A program made the translations under genes and the position numbers. The notes under the pieces are model-generated. The model saw nothing but the letters and a program-made list of their open reading frames with translations, was not told the DNA's origin and made no database searches. A stretch of 29,043 bases of DNA from a virus, in the IMG/VR virus record IMGVR_UViG_3300037070_004748, positions 1 through 29,043 of that record; one strand, given 5' to 3'. Position 1 is the stretch's first letter. Every line of letters begins with the position of its first letter. This document shows, piece by piece, positions 3,762 through 29,043 of this stretch.

Positions 3762-3791
3762 TGATGATTCCTTCCGTTCTATCCTACGCCG

Positions 3792-3800
3792 TGGTATAAT
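3792..3800 (+). promoter_or_regulatory. Extended -10 promoter for the HNH gene
   Basis: TGGTATAAT is a consensus TATAAT with the TGn extension. The -35 region is poor (TTCCGT at 3772-3777, 17-bp spacing), as allowed for extended -10 promoters. It lies in the divergent gap between the minus-strand acidic gene and the plus-strand HNH gene, about 85 bp before the GTG start. Confidence 0.6.
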
Positions 3801-3885
3801 TGAACGAGTAGAAACCAATACAAGTAGCCGAGCGGCGCTGCAAACGCCCCCGGCTTTGGCCGATAGTCCAAAGGAGACTAACGAC

Positions 3886-4677
3886 GTGACAAAGCATACC
3901 CCAAGCCCATTCCAACCCCAACTTCCCTTCACCGACACAGGCCCAAACCCAAGCGGTCTGTGTATGTGCGGCTGTGGACAGCCAACCCAAATAGCCGACA
4001 AGAATCACACGAGGTCGGGAACCATTAAGGGGCAATACCGCCTCTATGTCGTTGGTCACAATCCCAAGAAGCGAAAAGAGCAGCCCGGCGAAAAGCCTTG
4101 CGGTTATTGCGCCTGTGGTTGTGGCACGCCGATCTATCCCAGTAATCATCCAAGCAGGCAGAGCCGGTTCGCCAATGCACATACAGGGCGATGGCTGAAC
4201 TTGACCGCCGAGCAACGCTTCTGGGCAAAGGTGGACAAGCGCGGCCCTGATGAATGTTGGCAGTGGACTGCAGGCACAGCCGGATGGGGATATGGCAGTA
4301 TGGGCGTAGGGAGTAGACATGACGGTCACATTGCCGCTCACCGCTTTAGTTGGCAATTGCATCATGGTCCTATCCCTGACGGTCTTTGGGTACTTCACAA
4401 ATGCGATAATCCACCTTGCGTCAATCCCTCTCATTTGTTTCTCGGCACTCATACCGACAACATGATCGACATGAACGCAAAGGGAAGGGGTAATCACATC
4501 GAAAAGGGATTGCCAGGCGAACAGAATTACTTCGCACGACTGACCGAACCGCATGTGATTGAGATTCGCCGCCTTCATACGGAAGGCACGCGGCAGCGCG
4601 ACATAGCCGACAAGTTCGGCGTCTGCTTGGCAACCGTATCGAATATCATTGCACGTCGTACCTGGAGTCATATTTAA
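3886..4677 (+). CDS. Free-standing HNH homing endonuclease with double zinc-ribbon N-terminus
   Basis: 263 aa; the GTG start at 3886 is preceded by AAGGAGA. Order of parts: two Cys-rich modules of the form C-x-C-G-C-G-x-P (near residues 26-31 and 67-73); an HNH nuclease core (ECWQWTAG, AAHRFSW, VLHKCDNPPCVNPSHLFLGT with its His and metal-linked Cys residues, then TDNMIDM); and a C-terminal helix-turn-helix (LTEPHVIEIRRLH, RDIADKFGV, SNIIARRTWSHI). This is the known layout of phage HNH homing enzymes. It is the only plus-strand gene within the structural operon, between the connector and the acidic gene, with its own promoter and a structured leader. The same Cys module recurs in the HNH gene at 23.2-24.0 kb, and the same HTH in the one at 28.5 kb. 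Confidence 0.88.
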   Translation: MTKHTPSPFQPQLPFTDTGPNPSGLCMCGCGQPTQIADKNHTRSGTIKGQYRLYVVGHNPKKRKEQPGEKPCGYCACGCGTPIYPSNHPSRQSRFANAHTGRWLNLTAEQRFWAKVDKRGPDECWQWTAGTAGWGYGSMGVGSRHDGHIAAHRFSWQLHHGPIPDGLWVLHKCDNPPCVNPSHLFLGTHTDNMIDMNAKGRGNHIEKGLPGEQNYFARLTEPHVIEIRRLHTEGTRQRDIADKFGVCLATVSNIIARRTWSHI

Positions 4678-8519: not shown

Positions 8520-8562
8520 AAAATAAAAAACGCCCTACGGCCATTGCTGGCTCGTAGGGCGT
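8520..8562 (-). terminator. Rho-independent terminator (minus strand)
   Basis: A perfect 10-bp stem (8530-8539 with 8553-8562) closes a 13-nt loop. On the minus strand it is followed by TTTTTTATTTTG. It separates the packaging/portal/MuF group from the downstream capsid genes, so the latter may need their own promoter or read-through. The 8440-8520 gap holds no clear promoter. Confidence 0.8.
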
Positions 8563-22965: not shown

Positions 22966-23222
22966 GTTGGTCCCCCCTGAGGCATGCCCTGTAAGGGTTC
23001 CCGAAGGGTCACCTCGCAATACTCCAGACGGACCCAGGTTCCGTCAAAGGATTCGATTCTAAAAGAATGCTGACGCCCCAACATCATCACGGCCAGTTGC
23101 TTCTGCGTGCCGTGCCACTGGTAACAGACGCACACCGGCTCATCGACGCACACGCGCTGCGTGCCGCGGATGCGTCTGTGGCCGGAAAAGAACCAATACC
23201 CCTCTCCAGGTGGTTTGCTCAT
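22962..23222 (-). CDS. Small hypothetical protein
   Basis: 86 aa, ATG overlapping the HNH stop (ATGA). Cys/Trp-rich [25 protein letters not shown], then [18 protein letters not shown], suggesting a small beta barrel. The last residues ([10 protein letters not shown]) come from a 12-bp repeat copy and its flank. Unrecognised. Confidence 0.5.
22987..22998 (+). repeat. 12-bp interspersed palindrome, copy 6
   Basis: Exact CCCTGTAAGGGT at the 3' end of the 86-aa gene; shares a 19-mer with the copy at 2384. Its flank resembles the decayed copy at 24594. Confidence 0.85.
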
Positions 23223-24037
23223 GACTCACCTGGAAAATTCAGCCAAGCAAACTCACCATGTAGTTCTTTGGCCGCAGCGTCATAGGCACGCGCCGCATCT
23301 TCCGCCGTATCAAAGACGCCAAGACGCTTACGAATACCATTCATCCGAATCACAGCGCGCCATCTGGAGTTGCGCTTGTCCATTTCAATGCCCTTGTAAC
23401 CACTTTTATTACTCTTGGTAGCTCCACGATTACAAAGATTCTCTCCTGGTGTGGCAGGACGTAAGTTGCAGCGCCGGTTGTCTAATCCGTCACCGTTGAT
23501 ATGGTCAACGACTAACTGCGGGGCAATATCAAGAATTTCCCTGTGCATACTAACAATCCCCCTCTTTCCATCAGATGCAGATCGCAGGTTACGCACCGCA
23601 TACCAGTGACGACCGTTCGAATCAGCAAACCATAACCATTGCGACAACCACTCGTAATCCGCATCGTCAACGAGCGCATACTTCCCTTGCGTCAGTTGTA
23701 TCGCTCTGGTTCCTAGAGGCAATGGCAGTTCTACAAAAGGTTCGCGCGGCTTGGCCGCAACACTGTGCCCGCTGATAAACCGAACGGGTTCGCCTTTGAC
23801 CCATCCGCGACGCCTTGCAGTTTTCCGAGCAAGGGGTGCGGGATTCCCGCAGCCACACATACACAGGCCGCTTGGATTGGGTGGTTCTGGAATCGGACCC
23901 TTAGCGTTATTGTGACCAGGAAGAAATCTGGAGGGTTCACCTCTGAATCGGCCCATCGCCGTGTCGGTAACACGCACAAGATTTGTCTTCTGCCCACAGC
24001 CACACTCGCAGAAGCCTTCGGTCGGTGGTGGCGTCAT
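23219..24037 (-). CDS. HNH homing endonuclease with double Cys module and AP2 domain
   Basis: 272 aa. The first 90 residues hold two C-x-C-G-C-G modules ([12 protein letters not shown] and [12 protein letters not shown]), each followed by G-x-P-x-R-F-x-x-G-H. Next is an HNH_3-type nuclease: [49 protein letters not shown]-terminal AP2-like DNA-binding part follows: [42 protein letters not shown]. This is a common homing-enzyme plan. It lies on the same strand as, and is coupled to, the early genes, unlike the HNH gene at 3.9 kb. Confidence 0.9.
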
Positions 24038-25732: not shown

Positions 25733-26647
25733 GTGAAGAACGCACGCGAACACCTCGAAAAGTTCATTTCGTCCAAGAGCGCAGCCGGCAAAGCTGAACG
25801 AACGCTGCGCTGGTATGCCGACTTGCTTGGGACATACCTGGACTTTGCCGAAGCAAACGGCCTCTCATGGTGGCATACAGAAAGCATCGAACGCTTCCAG
25901 GCGGAGTTGTGGCAGCGCGGCTTTAAGCCAAACTCAGTGGACTGTTACTACCGAGCGATTCGCGCCTGGTGCAATTGGCTCATTAAACGCAAGATCATGC
26001 CGGCACCGTCGCCGATGGAAGCGTTGGAACGACCCGCCCGCCCCAGTGACCCTGTACCCTTCGTCACGCTGCCGGAGTTCACAAAGCTCCTGCATTCCAT
26101 CAAAGGCGAGGAATGGTCGGATCATCGTGACCGCTGTCTGCTATTGCTGATGTACTGGTCTGGTCTGCGCGTGGCCGAGGTGATTGGTCTACGCGTGGCG
26201 GATGTCGATGTGGCGAAGCGACTGGTGACGGTACGGCGAGGCAAAGGCGGTAAGTCCCGCCTCGTTCCCTGCGCGCCCGACCTGGGTGTAACAATTCTGG
26301 CGTATCTGCTGGCCCGGCCAGGCGTCGTGGGTGATGTACTGTTTGTCTCTAACGATGGCTATGGGGGCGTACGTGGCGCTTTGAGCGTGGATGGTCTGCG
26401 ACAAATGCTGCGCCGCCGCTGCGAGGCCGCCGGGCTGCGCTATATGCACCCGCATCTGTTCCGACATGGCTTCGCTATGCTGTTTTTGAATGCGGGGATG
26501 CAACTCAGCGCCGTAAGCGCCGCAATGGGGCATAGTTCACAGCAGATTACCACCGATATCTACGCGCGTTGGCTGAGTGACGGACTGTGCCGTGAATACG
26601 AAACGGCCAGGATGCGGGCAACCTCCCCGACCACCCACTTAGTTTGA
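25733..26647 (+). CDS. Tyrosine integrase/recombinase
   Basis: 304 aa from a GTG start with AAAGGA upstream. The N-terminal SAM-like core-binding domain (about 1-95) contains FISSKSAAGKAERTLRWYADLL. The catalytic domain has SGLRVAEV (Arg146), RRGKGGKSR (Lys near 171-174), HPHLFRHGFA (His241, Arg244), GHSS (His267) and DIYARW (Tyr277), the full catalytic set. It has an XerC/D-like size and lacks the extra N-terminal arm-binding domain of lambda Int. The putative att site lies 70-100 bp downstream. It makes the phage temperate, or it resolves replicon multimers. Confidence 0.93.
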   Translation: MKNAREHLEKFISSKSAAGKAERTLRWYADLLGTYLDFAEANGLSWWHTESIERFQAELWQRGFKPNSVDCYYRAIRAWCNWLIKRKIMPAPSPMEALERPARPSDPVPFVTLPEFTKLLHSIKGEEWSDHRDRCLLLLMYWSGLRVAEVIGLRVADVDVAKRLVTVRRGKGGKSRLVPCAPDLGVTILAYLLARPGVVGDVLFVSNDGYGGVRGALSVDGLRQMLRRRCEAAGLRYMHPHLFRHGFAMLFLNAGMQLSAVSAAMGHSSQQITTDIYARWLSDGLCREYETARMRATSPTTHLV

Positions 26648-26768: not shown

Positions 26769-26830
26769 ACTTGTTAATGTGCCAGCGTCTTGTCACAGGC
26801 GGCAAACCATTAGACAAGATGCGCCAAAAG

Positions 26831-26864
26831 AAATGCTCTGGCTCCGGCTGGAGCATTTTTGTTA
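26831..26864 (+). terminator. Bidirectional terminator between integrase and RHH gene
   Basis: A stem AATGCTC/GAGCATT encloses a GC-rich loop. It is followed by TTTTTGTT on the plus strand and by TTCTTTTGG on the minus strand. It ends the integrase transcript and probably the RHH transcript. Confidence 0.75.
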
Positions 26865-26896: not shown

Positions 26897-27091
26897 TTAC
26901 GCCATTGCTCCGGCGAGGGTCAATTCTTTTCCCCGTGGCTCGATTACAAACGCTGGGCGCTTTTCGCTTAGATAGTTCAAAGCAAACAAGATGAGCTTTG
27001 AGCGATCCATGCGATAATCGTCGGCCAGTTCCGCTAGGAATTTATCTTCTTCTTCGTCTAACCGCAACTGAAAATATCGGCTTTTTGCCAT
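26897..27091 (-). CDS. Ribbon-helix-helix transcription regulator
   Basis: 64 aa, MAKSRYFQLRLDEEEDKFLAELADDYRMDRSKLILFALNYLSEKRP. A short basic beta strand (YFQLRL) followed by two helices is the Arc/CopG/MetJ fold. AAAGGAGGT lies before the ATG. It sits beside a divergent promoter with a large inverted repeat, so it very likely represses its own promoter and the opposite one. The end EPRGKELTLAGAMA is probably a flexible tail. It could be the lysogeny switch or a maintenance regulator. Confidence 0.8.
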   Translation of the reverse strand: MAKSRYFQLRLDEEEDKFLAELADDYRMDRSKLILFALNYLSEKRPAFVIEPRGKELTLAGAMA

Positions 27092-27124: not shown

Positions 27125-27153
27125 AGTATATCATGCTGTCATTACACTGTCAA
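27125..27153 (-). promoter_or_regulatory. Promoter of the RHH gene
   Basis: TTGACA (27153-27148) and TATACT (27130-27125) with exactly 17 bp between. The -35 is inside the left arm of the inverted repeat. Confidence 0.8.
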
Positions 27154-27195
27154 TAACGTAAATTGTCTATATTGACTATTGACACTGTAATGACA
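27137..27195. promoter_or_regulatory. 19-bp inverted repeat operator
   Basis: Arms 27137-27155 and 27177-27195 match at 18 of 19 positions with 21 bp between. Each arm covers one -35 box and part of its spacer, ideal for repression by the adjacent RHH protein. TGACA sub-sites recur within each arm at 11-bp spacing. Confidence 0.75.
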
Positions 27196-27207
27196 ACGTG
27201 CTATACT
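27179..27207 (+). promoter_or_regulatory. Divergent plus-strand promoter
   Basis: TTGACA (27179-27184) and TATACT (27202-27207) with exactly 17 bp between; a near mirror image of the RHH promoter. Drives the small plus-strand genes. Hairpins 27214-27229 and 27235-27250 follow in the leader. Confidence 0.82.
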
Positions 27208-27272: not shown

Positions 27273-27443
27273 ATGTTTACTCACACTTCTTATACCCAGG
27301 CAGTTACCTGGGCCAAGCGCCACCCGGATGTTGTTTGCGTCATTGACGCCGGGCAAGGCTGGGTCGGCAAACTCTGGTTCTCCAGCCGTTGGGGCCGGAT
27401 GGTCCACGAGTCTTACAACCCGCAAGGGATGTTGGTCATCTAG
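27273..27443 (+). CDS. Small hypothetical protein
   Basis: 56 aa, MFTHTSYTQAVTWAKRHPDV...GWVGKLWFSSRWGRMVHESYNPQG. AAAGGGG lies eight bases before the ATG. It is the first gene after the plus-strand promoter. It is Trp-rich with a beta-type end. Unrecognised; immediate-early position suggests a control or host-takeover role, which is inference. Confidence 0.55.
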   Translation: MFTHTSYTQAVTWAKRHPDVVCVIDAGQGWVGKLWFSSRWGRMVHESYNPQGMLVI

Positions 27444-27448
27444 CCGAA

Positions 27449-27539
27449 ACGCCTTCGGGCGTCTGGTGCAAATAGCACCACTGATGAGGCTTAAACAAAT
27501 AAAAAAGTGCCGCAGCGTCTAGTCCACGCCCGGCTCATC
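27449..27539 (+). ncRNA. Structured leader A (three hairpins)
   Basis: Hairpin 1 is ACGCC-TTCG-GGCGT (27449-27462). Hairpin 2 is TGGTGC/GCACCA (27464-27480). Hairpin 3 has paired blocks GCCG/CGGC and GCGT/ACGC (27509-27534), closed further out by GATGAG/CTCATC. Hairpin 3 is related to element B at 27841-27870. An A6 run precedes it, so on the minus strand it could act as a terminator. Confidence 0.5.
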
Positions 27540-27561
27540 CAAGAAAGAGGAAACTTCTAAA

Positions 27562-27816
27562 ATGACGACAACCAATCAAGGCGAATCGGAAATGAATGCC
27601 GCCGACCCTTACAGGGCGAACCTAAGAGCCAAAATTACGAGCATCATTGGCGGCATGAAAGTCGGGGAAACAAAGCGTTTCCGTTCCGGCGCTGAGGTTC
27701 ATCGTAATCATTACAATCATTTTGGATATGATGTAGTTTCTCCCGACGGCGACACCTCTGCATCTGGCATATCCAAAGACCGAGCTATCGATCTTGTTCT
27801 CGATGGGTATCGCTAA
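27562..27816 (+). CDS. Small hypothetical protein
   Basis: 84 aa, MTTTNQGESEMNAADPYRANLRAKITSIIGGMKVGETKRFRSGAEVHRNHYNHFGYDVV. AGAGGA lies upstream; a second ATG at 27592 is possible. The core looks like a small alpha/beta domain. A 12-bp repeat copy encodes DPYR. Unrecognised. Confidence 0.6.
   Translation: MTTTNQGESEMNAADPYRANLRAKITSIIGGMKVGETKRFRSGAEVHRNHYNHFGYDVVSPDGDTSASGISKDRAIDLVLDGYR
27605..27616 (-). repeat. 12-bp interspersed palindrome, copy 7
   Basis: Exact ACCCTTACAGGG on the plus (coding) strand, read as D-P-Y-R; the only copy in a plus-strand gene. Shares 18 bp with the copy at 11539. Confidence 0.85.
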
Positions 27817-27824
27817 AATTCAGT

Positions 27825-27870
27825 TAGCACCAACAAAAAAGTGAGGCGGCGTCCAGTCAACGCCCCTCAC
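27825..27870 (+). ncRNA. Structured leader B
   Basis: Stem GTGAGG + GGCGT (one bulged C) pairs with ACGCC + CCTCAC (27841-27870) around a 7-nt loop. It shares TAGCACC, the A6-GTG lead and GCGTCyAGTCmACGC with element A, while the outer stem differs in a pairing-preserving way. 27871-27922 shows nothing else but a purine-rich stretch. Confidence 0.5.
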
Positions 27871-27922: not shown

Positions 27923-28180
27923 GTGTCAATTTTAGCACAATCACCTAATCATTACCAACAGCGCGCCCACGCCACCCGTGCCGCACGCCAGGCCGCTGGC
28001 CGTTATCCGACCAGGGCACATAAGGCGGCCTTCGCCAAGATGATTCAGCGCGGTGGTTTACGCAGCTTGACGGCGGATGAATGTGAAATCTTAGCCACTC
28101 ATCCGCAGCTCACCTTCTCGCAGCGGGCGACGATGGTCGAAATGGCCGCAGAGCGTCGCACAGAAAGCGATGTGCGCTAA
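27923..28180 (+). CDS. Small hypothetical protein
   Basis: 85 aa from a GTG, MSILAQSPNHYQQRAHATRAARQAAGRYP. It is basic and helical, with CEILATHPQLTFSQRATMVEMAAERR at the end. The ribosome site is weak. Unrecognised; the basic charge would suit nucleic-acid binding. Confidence 0.5.
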   Translation: MSILAQSPNHYQQRAHATRAARQAAGRYPTRAHKAAFAKMIQRGGLRSLTADECEILATHPQLTFSQRATMVEMAAERRTESDVR

Positions 28181-28235: not shown

Positions 28236-28484
28236 ATGCGCGTCGCTCCACGCACGACAGAAGAAGCCGTGGCCGCCATCCAGTACGGCCGTATGCTATT
28301 CGAGTCTGGCCAAAGCCGCACCCATTGTCACAACCAGCTTGAGATGTCAGGCTATGACGAGGCCGAAGCGGACTGTGTTGCTGCATTGACCCCGTTGCAA
28401 GACGCAAGCGTAGACTATGAGGCGGAAGCTTCCGATTACGAAGATTATATGGAAGAAGTTGCTTGGATACGGGGAGGATGCTGA
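28236..28484 (+). CDS. Small acidic hypothetical protein
   Basis: 82 aa from the ATG at 28236, chosen for AGGGGA eight bases upstream; a longer frame reaches 28170. Reads MRVAPRTTEEAVAAIQYGRMLFESG, with an acidic end (YEAEASDYEDYMEEVAW). It overlaps the HNH gene start (ATGA). Unrecognised; the acidic helical end could mimic DNA, a speculation. Confidence 0.5.
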   Translation: MRVAPRTTEEAVAAIQYGRMLFESGQSRTHCHNQLEMSGYDEAEADCVAALTPLQDASVDYEAEASDYEDYMEEVAWIRGGC

Positions 28485-29043
28485 TGACCGACAATCAGCC
28501 GCCCGAAGAATGGCGAGATGTGCCAGGGTATGAGGGGCGTTACCAGGTATCGAATATCGGGCGCGTCCGCTCTTGGGTAAACAATGTAGGGAATCGACGA
28601 AAAGAACCAAAGGCGCTTCGCCTGAACACGCGACGAGGATATGCCACAATTTGGCTGAGTTGGTTTGGGCAAGGAAAGCGCTACTTGGTGCATAGGCTTG
28701 TTGCCTCGGCATTTATGGAAAAGCCCCGGCCCGACCAACAGATTAACCATATCAACGGAATTAAGAACGACAACACTGTCGGCAACCTAGAGTGGGTAAC
28801 GGCAAGTGAGAATGTTCAACATGCAGTTGCAGTATTAGGCGCTCAATCCTGGCAACAGGGAGAAAATCATCCCCGGGCGAAACTCACATATGCCCAGGTG
28901 GATGAGATTCGATTGGCTCTATTGCGGGGCGAAAGCGGCGCGGAAATTGCAAGGCGCTACGGTGTACACAAAGATACCATATCGTACATTAGACGGGGTA
29001 AGAGTTGGGGAGTGATGCCATTACCGCGTGCCGATAGAGGCGA
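28484..29043 (+). CDS. NUMOD4/HNH homing endonuclease, cut by the right edge
   Basis: The frame is open from ATG 28484 to the window end (at least 186 aa). Order: NUMOD4 (EEWRDVPGYEGRYQVSNIGRVRSW), HNH (LVHRLVASAFMEKP, INHINGIKNDNTVGNLEWVTASENVQHA), and a C-terminal HTH (AKLTYAQVDEIRLALLRG, AEIARRYGVHKDTISYIRRGKSWG). It is a textbook phage homing enzyme. Its HTH matches that of the HNH gene at 3.9-4.7 kb in pattern. Confidence 0.92.
   Translation, partial: MTDNQPPEEWRDVPGYEGRYQVSNIGRVRSWVNNVGNRRKEPKALRLNTRRGYATIWLSWFGQGKRYLVHRLVASAFMEKPRPDQQINHINGIKNDNTVGNLEWVTASENVQHAVAVLGAQSWQQGENHPRAKLTYAQVDEIRLALLRGESGAEIARRYGVHKDTISYIRRGKSWGVMPLPRADRG

Follow-up and report, generated by a model that had tools for sequence, protein, structure and literature searches.

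A predicted compact type II hammerhead ribozyme and a duplicated hairpin in the leaders of early genes of a temperate phage

The window analysed here (29,043 nt) covers a linear IMG/VR record from end to end, and the record belongs to a temperate phage. The integrase gene (positions 25733-26647, assigned by family search) is separated from a convergent repressor-like gene by a terminator-like hairpin with T5 (26816-26862); the repressor-like gene itself (26897-27091, minus strand) has a weak ribbon-helix-helix (RHH) match. Next to it lies an inverted repeat (27125-27207; 31-nt arms, 87%), which holds two divergent promoters of the sigma-70 type, both TTGACA-17-TATACT. One of them (27179-27207, plus strand) faces the ribozyme operon, and the other (27153-27125, minus strand) faces the RHH repressor-like gene. 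Their hexamers are identical, match the consensus in 11 of 12 positions, and are accompanied by TG ahead of the second hexamer. An Rfam match to mir-2733 at the same positions (27125-27207) was rejected, being the promoter palindrome and no microRNA.

Rightward from the promoter, the order is ORF1, the ribozyme, hairpin A, ORF2, hairpin B, ORF3, ORF4 and an HNH gene. ORF1 (27274-27443, plus strand) is a small early gene of ∼56 amino acids, whose probable start at 27274 has AAAGGGG upstream and whose TAG stop codon (27441-27443) shares bases with the beginning of ribozyme stem II. ORF2 (27562-27816, plus strand, 84 amino acids) has an AGAGG ribosome-binding site just upstream, and its ATG lies 70 nt beyond the end of the ribozyme. 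It is followed by ORF3 (27923-28180, plus strand, 85 amino acids), likewise a small early gene. The HNH gene (28484-29041, plus strand; Pfam and PHROGs) occupies the right end of the window; two further HNH-like ORFs with CxCGCGxP repeats, at 3784-4677 (plus) and 23219-24037 (minus), were recognized by eye only. Searches with ORF1 to ORF4 gave no accepted family, and no relatives of ORF2 and ORF3 were found. Among 50,697 phage records there was no near DNA match to the window, and a host search of genome contigs by means of the integrase gave one distant match only, which pinned down no host. Elsewhere in the window, strong intrinsic terminators of the minus strand, each a hairpin followed by T6-T8, are located at 8531 and 21670, just past the ends of minus-strand ORFs.

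Positions 27442-27491 of the plus strand appear to encode a complete type II hammerhead ribozyme, a self-cutting RNA with all core bases and three stems intact; an independent covariance model, the Rfam RF02276 model and the minimum free energy (MFE) fold all point to it. The conserved core, comprising CUGANGA, GAAA and the UH at the cleavage site, is present in full, as are the three stems around it (4, 5 and 6 bp), of which stem II is the open one. The RNA segments run AGCC GAAA CGCC UUCG GGCG U C / UGGUGC AAAUA GCACCA CUGAUGA GGCU, with the predicted cut at the slash. Stem II (27442-27445/27488-27491, AGCC/GGCU, 4 bp) encloses the GAAA motif (27446-27449), the closed stem III of 5 bp with its UUCG loop (27449-27453/27458-27462), the closed stem I of 6 bp with its 5-nt loop AAAUA (27464-27469/27475-27480) and the CUGAUGA motif (CTGATGA in the DNA, 27481-27487). 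The bases T27462 and C27463 (C17) satisfy the UH requirement, and from the core position and established hammerhead chemistry self-cleavage is predicted after C17, between 27463 and 27464, where the RNA would be expected to be cut in the cell. The first-pass annotation had described two extra hairpins before hairpin A. Both exist, but they are not accessory to it; they correspond to stems III and I of the hammerhead, which that annotation had not recognized. The TAGCACC that opens element A (27473-27539) of that annotation is the 3' half of ribozyme stem I, and the same letters occur in B without a ribozyme.

Folded in isolation, the ribozyme stretch adopts exactly the hammerhead as its MFE structure (-19.1 kcal/mol). 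Model R1, a covariance model trained on 34 phage hammerheads other than that of the window, detects 27442-27491 at 58.1 bits (E 2.9e-17), and this is its sole match in the 29-kb window. The Rfam model of type II hammerheads, RF02276, applied to 76 nt, gives 23.6 bits (E 0.0027), which is below the gathering score of 37 bits, a curation cut-off and no defining biochemical feature. An Rfam search of the window at gathering level gave no match. In a 3.5-kb search with a clan filter, a weak Hammerhead_3 match was obtained, but it represents a mis-closed fold that borrows hairpin A, and positions 27425-27500 alone are assigned to type II. A pseudoknot between loop I and the tail after stem II is common, but not universal, in type II hammerheads and hence not defining; it is absent from the window copy, in which the longest match is 2 bases.

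The wider set of phage hammerheads was assembled by scanning IMG/VR with a pattern for stem-II-closed hammerheads, which gave at least 120 stretches, in which a hammerhead detector recognized at least 162 well-formed hammerheads in at least 108 loci, the window counted in. Model R1 derives from an alignment (A1) of 34 compact hammerheads among the matches listed. In this alignment, 99.2% of the cells are paired, a percentage that is partly built in, since the detector demands pairing, whereas the variety of pair types is not; both-side changes occur in 12 of the 16 pairs, and the covariation score is 0.708 (versus 0.157 for shuffles). Among the 13 closest hammerheads in the matches listed, window included, 9 of 14 pairs show both-side changes. 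The strong, family-wide covariation at this locus, as judged from these alignments, thus sits in the hammerhead directly upstream of hairpin A and not in the A/B hairpins.

Two sorts of phage type II hammerheads, with long and short stem I, respectively, were distinguished among the matches listed (IMG/VR loci L006-L125). In the long-stem-I sort, a loop I-tail pseudoknot of at least 4 bases can form in 76 of 99 copies among the matches listed, versus 21 of 99 with a shuffled tail. The compact, short-stem-I sort, in contrast, lacks the pseudoknot (3 of 70 among the matches listed, the same as with shuffled tails), and it is to this sort that the window hammerhead belongs by its sequence. The compact sort mostly escapes the RF02276 cut-off: in 11 loci rich in compact hammerheads R1 finds 35, of which only 4 pass the Rfam gathering level. 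One phage contig (L015:174-5156, minus strand) carries 11 compact hammerheads within ∼5 kb.

Seven viral records encode a terminase 51-100% identical to that of the window; the record with the 100% identical terminase is an 11.9-kb fragment. One relative (G004, locus L129; terminase 57% identical) carries ten type II hammerheads among small ORFs (C1:1162-5844, minus strand), on the strand opposite the late genes, like that of the window, and most of them score under the Rfam cut-off. The single copy in the window versus ten in this relative, together with a score under the Rfam cut-off, could suggest that the window hammerhead is a decayed, inactive relic. Such a relic is quite improbable, however, for a sequence that has lost no core base and none of its three stems, and whose 58.1 bits exceed the scores of all ten copies of the relative.

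The layout around the ribozyme was compared in a census of 169 phage hammerheads among the matches listed. The stop codon of the preceding ORF falls within -12 to +4 of stem II in 125 of 163 of them (control 6.5%), and a ribosome-binding site with a start codon follows within 100 nt in 145 of 159 (median 25), in both cases among the matches listed. No sense-strand intrinsic terminator was detected in the next 110 nt in any of 165 phage hammerheads among the matches listed, so that transcription is expected to continue past the ribozyme, which should cleave the message between the genes.

Downstream of the ribozyme, a direct repeat of 37 nt (27495-27531 and 27829-27865; 81% identical, 30 of 37 matches) contains two related hairpins of 30 nt. 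Hairpin A (27507-27536) has A6 ahead of it on the plus strand, which is T6 after the stem on the minus strand; hairpin B (27841-27870) has no ribozyme in front. The best of 200 Markov-1 simulations of the region reached 27 matches, so the repeat is beyond chance. The related hairpins noted earlier before consecutive small genes are indeed present. The compensating stem changes proposed in the same annotation were also recovered. A and B differ at eight positions. Two of these are loop positions, and the six stem differences all keep or improve pairing in B. Two pairs are changed on both sides (27510/27533 from C-G in A to A-T in B, and 27511/27532 from C-G to G-C), while two mismatches of A (T.T and A.C) are pairs in B. 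When eight random changes are made to A, the 11 pairs of B are attained with p = 0.0005; in the opposite direction, from B to the 9 pairs of A, the value is p = 0.10, and the two copies therefore constitute moderate covariation evidence only.

To see whether A and B belong to a conserved RNA family, phage loci were searched with a covariance model, as the first-pass annotation had suggested, and no further members with paired changes were found. Outside the window, the model of A and B had no match in 0.96 Mb of phage loci from 100 sources. Nine phage records, either related or carrying hammerheads, likewise contained none, bar one 14-bit match in G006, which lies inside a tape-measure-like gene and was rejected. 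Exact and loosened patterns of the hairpins gave four matches in IMG/VR, about the chance expectation and apparently all within genes, and a further IMG/VR pattern scan gave none. A conserved leader RNA family is thus not supported by these sequence searches, and A and B appear instead to be a local hairpin repeat found only in this phage, unrelated or loosely related to the ribozyme. The view that hairpin A generally accompanies hammerheads was rejected as well, since other members are lacking in the 0.96 Mb of phage loci; against such a role counts, in addition, that an antisense terminator follows within 110 nt in just 2 of 165 phage hammerheads among the matches listed. Hairpin B was likewise rejected as a ribozyme relic: it has TAGCACCA in common, but stems II and III are gone, and R1 finds no second copy.

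The initial proposal, made from the sequence, that the leaders of successive early genes contain RNA structure is supported by the ribozyme and the hairpins, and the role of the latter may be sought on either strand. As plus-strand leader RNAs, for example protein-binding or nut-like elements, A and B would control each small gene; their occurrence in two copies before consecutive genes, the changes that preserve the stem, with two pairs altered on both sides, and a repeat beyond chance are consistent with such a role. The pairing constraint, however, is equally expected of minus-strand terminators, the A6 adjoining both stems suits the minus strand, and the searches described above yielded no more members, all of which make a leader element unlikely. 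With no more than two copies, both in a single genome, the evidence for covariation is thin and does not distinguish the relevant strand.

Intrinsic terminators of leftward transcripts, which would shield the region of the divergent promoters and the repressor from antisense RNA, are the favoured reading, at slightly under an even chance, with an idle duplication taking up the remainder. Like intrinsic (Rho-independent) terminators in general, both A and B have on the minus strand a G+C-rich stem with T6 directly after it, a format shared with the minus-strand terminators of the window at 8531 and 21670. Only six runs of A6 or longer occur in the 29 kb, two of them at A and B and two at these terminators. 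Hairpin B, with a minus-strand score of d = 34.7 (threshold d > 0), ranks third by score among the distinct sites of the window, after 8531 and 21670. The terminator alternative offered by the first-pass annotation is thus better supported for B than the conserved family is, but A is borderline, scoring 24.8 only with its outermost pair closed and -36.6 with the inner stem alone; the closing pair lies beyond the T.T mismatch near the base. Unlike typical terminators, moreover, neither hairpin coincides with a minus-strand gene end, and a nearby minus-strand promoter candidate (27958-27929) matches in 9 of 12 positions only, no better than shuffles.

A connection between hairpin A and the ribozyme was also considered. 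In the whole leader, AGCCG (27442-27446) can pair with CGGCU (27531-27535) instead of forming stem II, and this alternative dominates the predicted full-leader ensemble (0.75 versus 0.16 for stem II, with an advantage of 1.1 kcal/mol). Hairpin A, beside the ribozyme, contains the CGGCU partner, whereas B, without a ribozyme, lacks it. It could be imagined that the 3' strand of A takes AGCCG from stem II and stops cleavage when the ribozyme is slow or A is opened. Five-base complementarity is frequent by chance, however, and the arrangement is kept in no relative. Nascent RNAs ending at 27492-27508 are, furthermore, predicted to fold as the hammerhead, which is complete ∼45 nt before its CGGCU partner is made, so that the ribozyme probably cuts first. 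These points make a switch of this kind very improbable. The chance is slighter still that, as such a model would allow, cutting of the early mRNA is controlled by a factor acting on hairpin A, be it a protein, a ribosome or an antisense RNA with its end at A; if true, the operon in the lysogeny region would contain a hammerhead under natural regulation.

Cutting of the early mRNA by the hammerhead, together with A and B most likely acting as terminators of leftward RNA, is jointly quite probably the best explanation of the locus. A rightward early transcript starting at ∼27214 would read ORF1, the hammerhead (27442-27491), ORF2, ORF3 and the HNH gene. The hammerhead would fold once made and cut between 27463 and 27464. 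The ORF1 mRNA would then end ∼20 nt past its stop codon, with the stable UUCG-capped stem III and a 2',3'-cyclic phosphate, and the ORF2 mRNA would start 98 nt ahead of the ATG, carrying a 5'-hydroxyl and the hairpin of stem I. The cut would split the first early message from the remainder of the operon and may thereby give the two parts separate rates of decay and translation; the two new ends may also shield the mRNA from decay. Hairpins A and B, as a duplicated intergenic repeat, would most likely act as intrinsic terminators of leftward (antisense) RNA.

Hammerheads are already known from phages, and the window ribozyme is a further copy of a known class. Type II hammerheads (RF02276; Perreault et al. 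2011, PMC3088659) have in common with it the CUGAUGA, GAAA and UC core, with stems I and III closed and stem II open. The window ribozyme resembles them in its phage origin near an integrase and in its intergenic placement, and differs in being a compact copy of 50 nt with a 6-bp stem I and a 5-nt loop, without the pseudoknot. Perreault et al. (2011) proposed that prophage hammerhead clusters process transcripts into gene-length mRNAs, the same role as suggested here; three of these clusters showed cleavage in vitro, and a triple array did so in E. coli (PMC3088659). In the prophage clusters that flank single genes (Agrobacterium ardA, Azorhizobium and Clostridium scindens; PMC3088659), the ribozyme likewise lies between successive genes of one transcript, whereas the window record has one copy, and its flanking genes are without a known family. 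In the haloviruses HF1 and HF2, the 5' end mapped at the cleavage site of HHphage lies upstream of an early gene (PMC3088659), and the likeness extends to a hammerhead placed upstream of an early gene within a polycistronic early transcript. HHphage has, however, a variant hammerhead structure and precedes a helicase start codon by 13 nt, in contrast to the canonical core of the window copy, 70 nt before a gene without family.

In this locus, a predicted self-cleaving ribozyme can be assigned an exact position within the early operon of a phage: it separates the first and second genes that follow a divergent promoter. The stop-ribozyme-start layout, with no terminator following, argues that prokaryotic hammerheads cut polycistronic messages. 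Together with its relatives, the window ribozyme suggests that compact, pseudoknot-free type II hammerheads are a common form of punctuation in phage operons.
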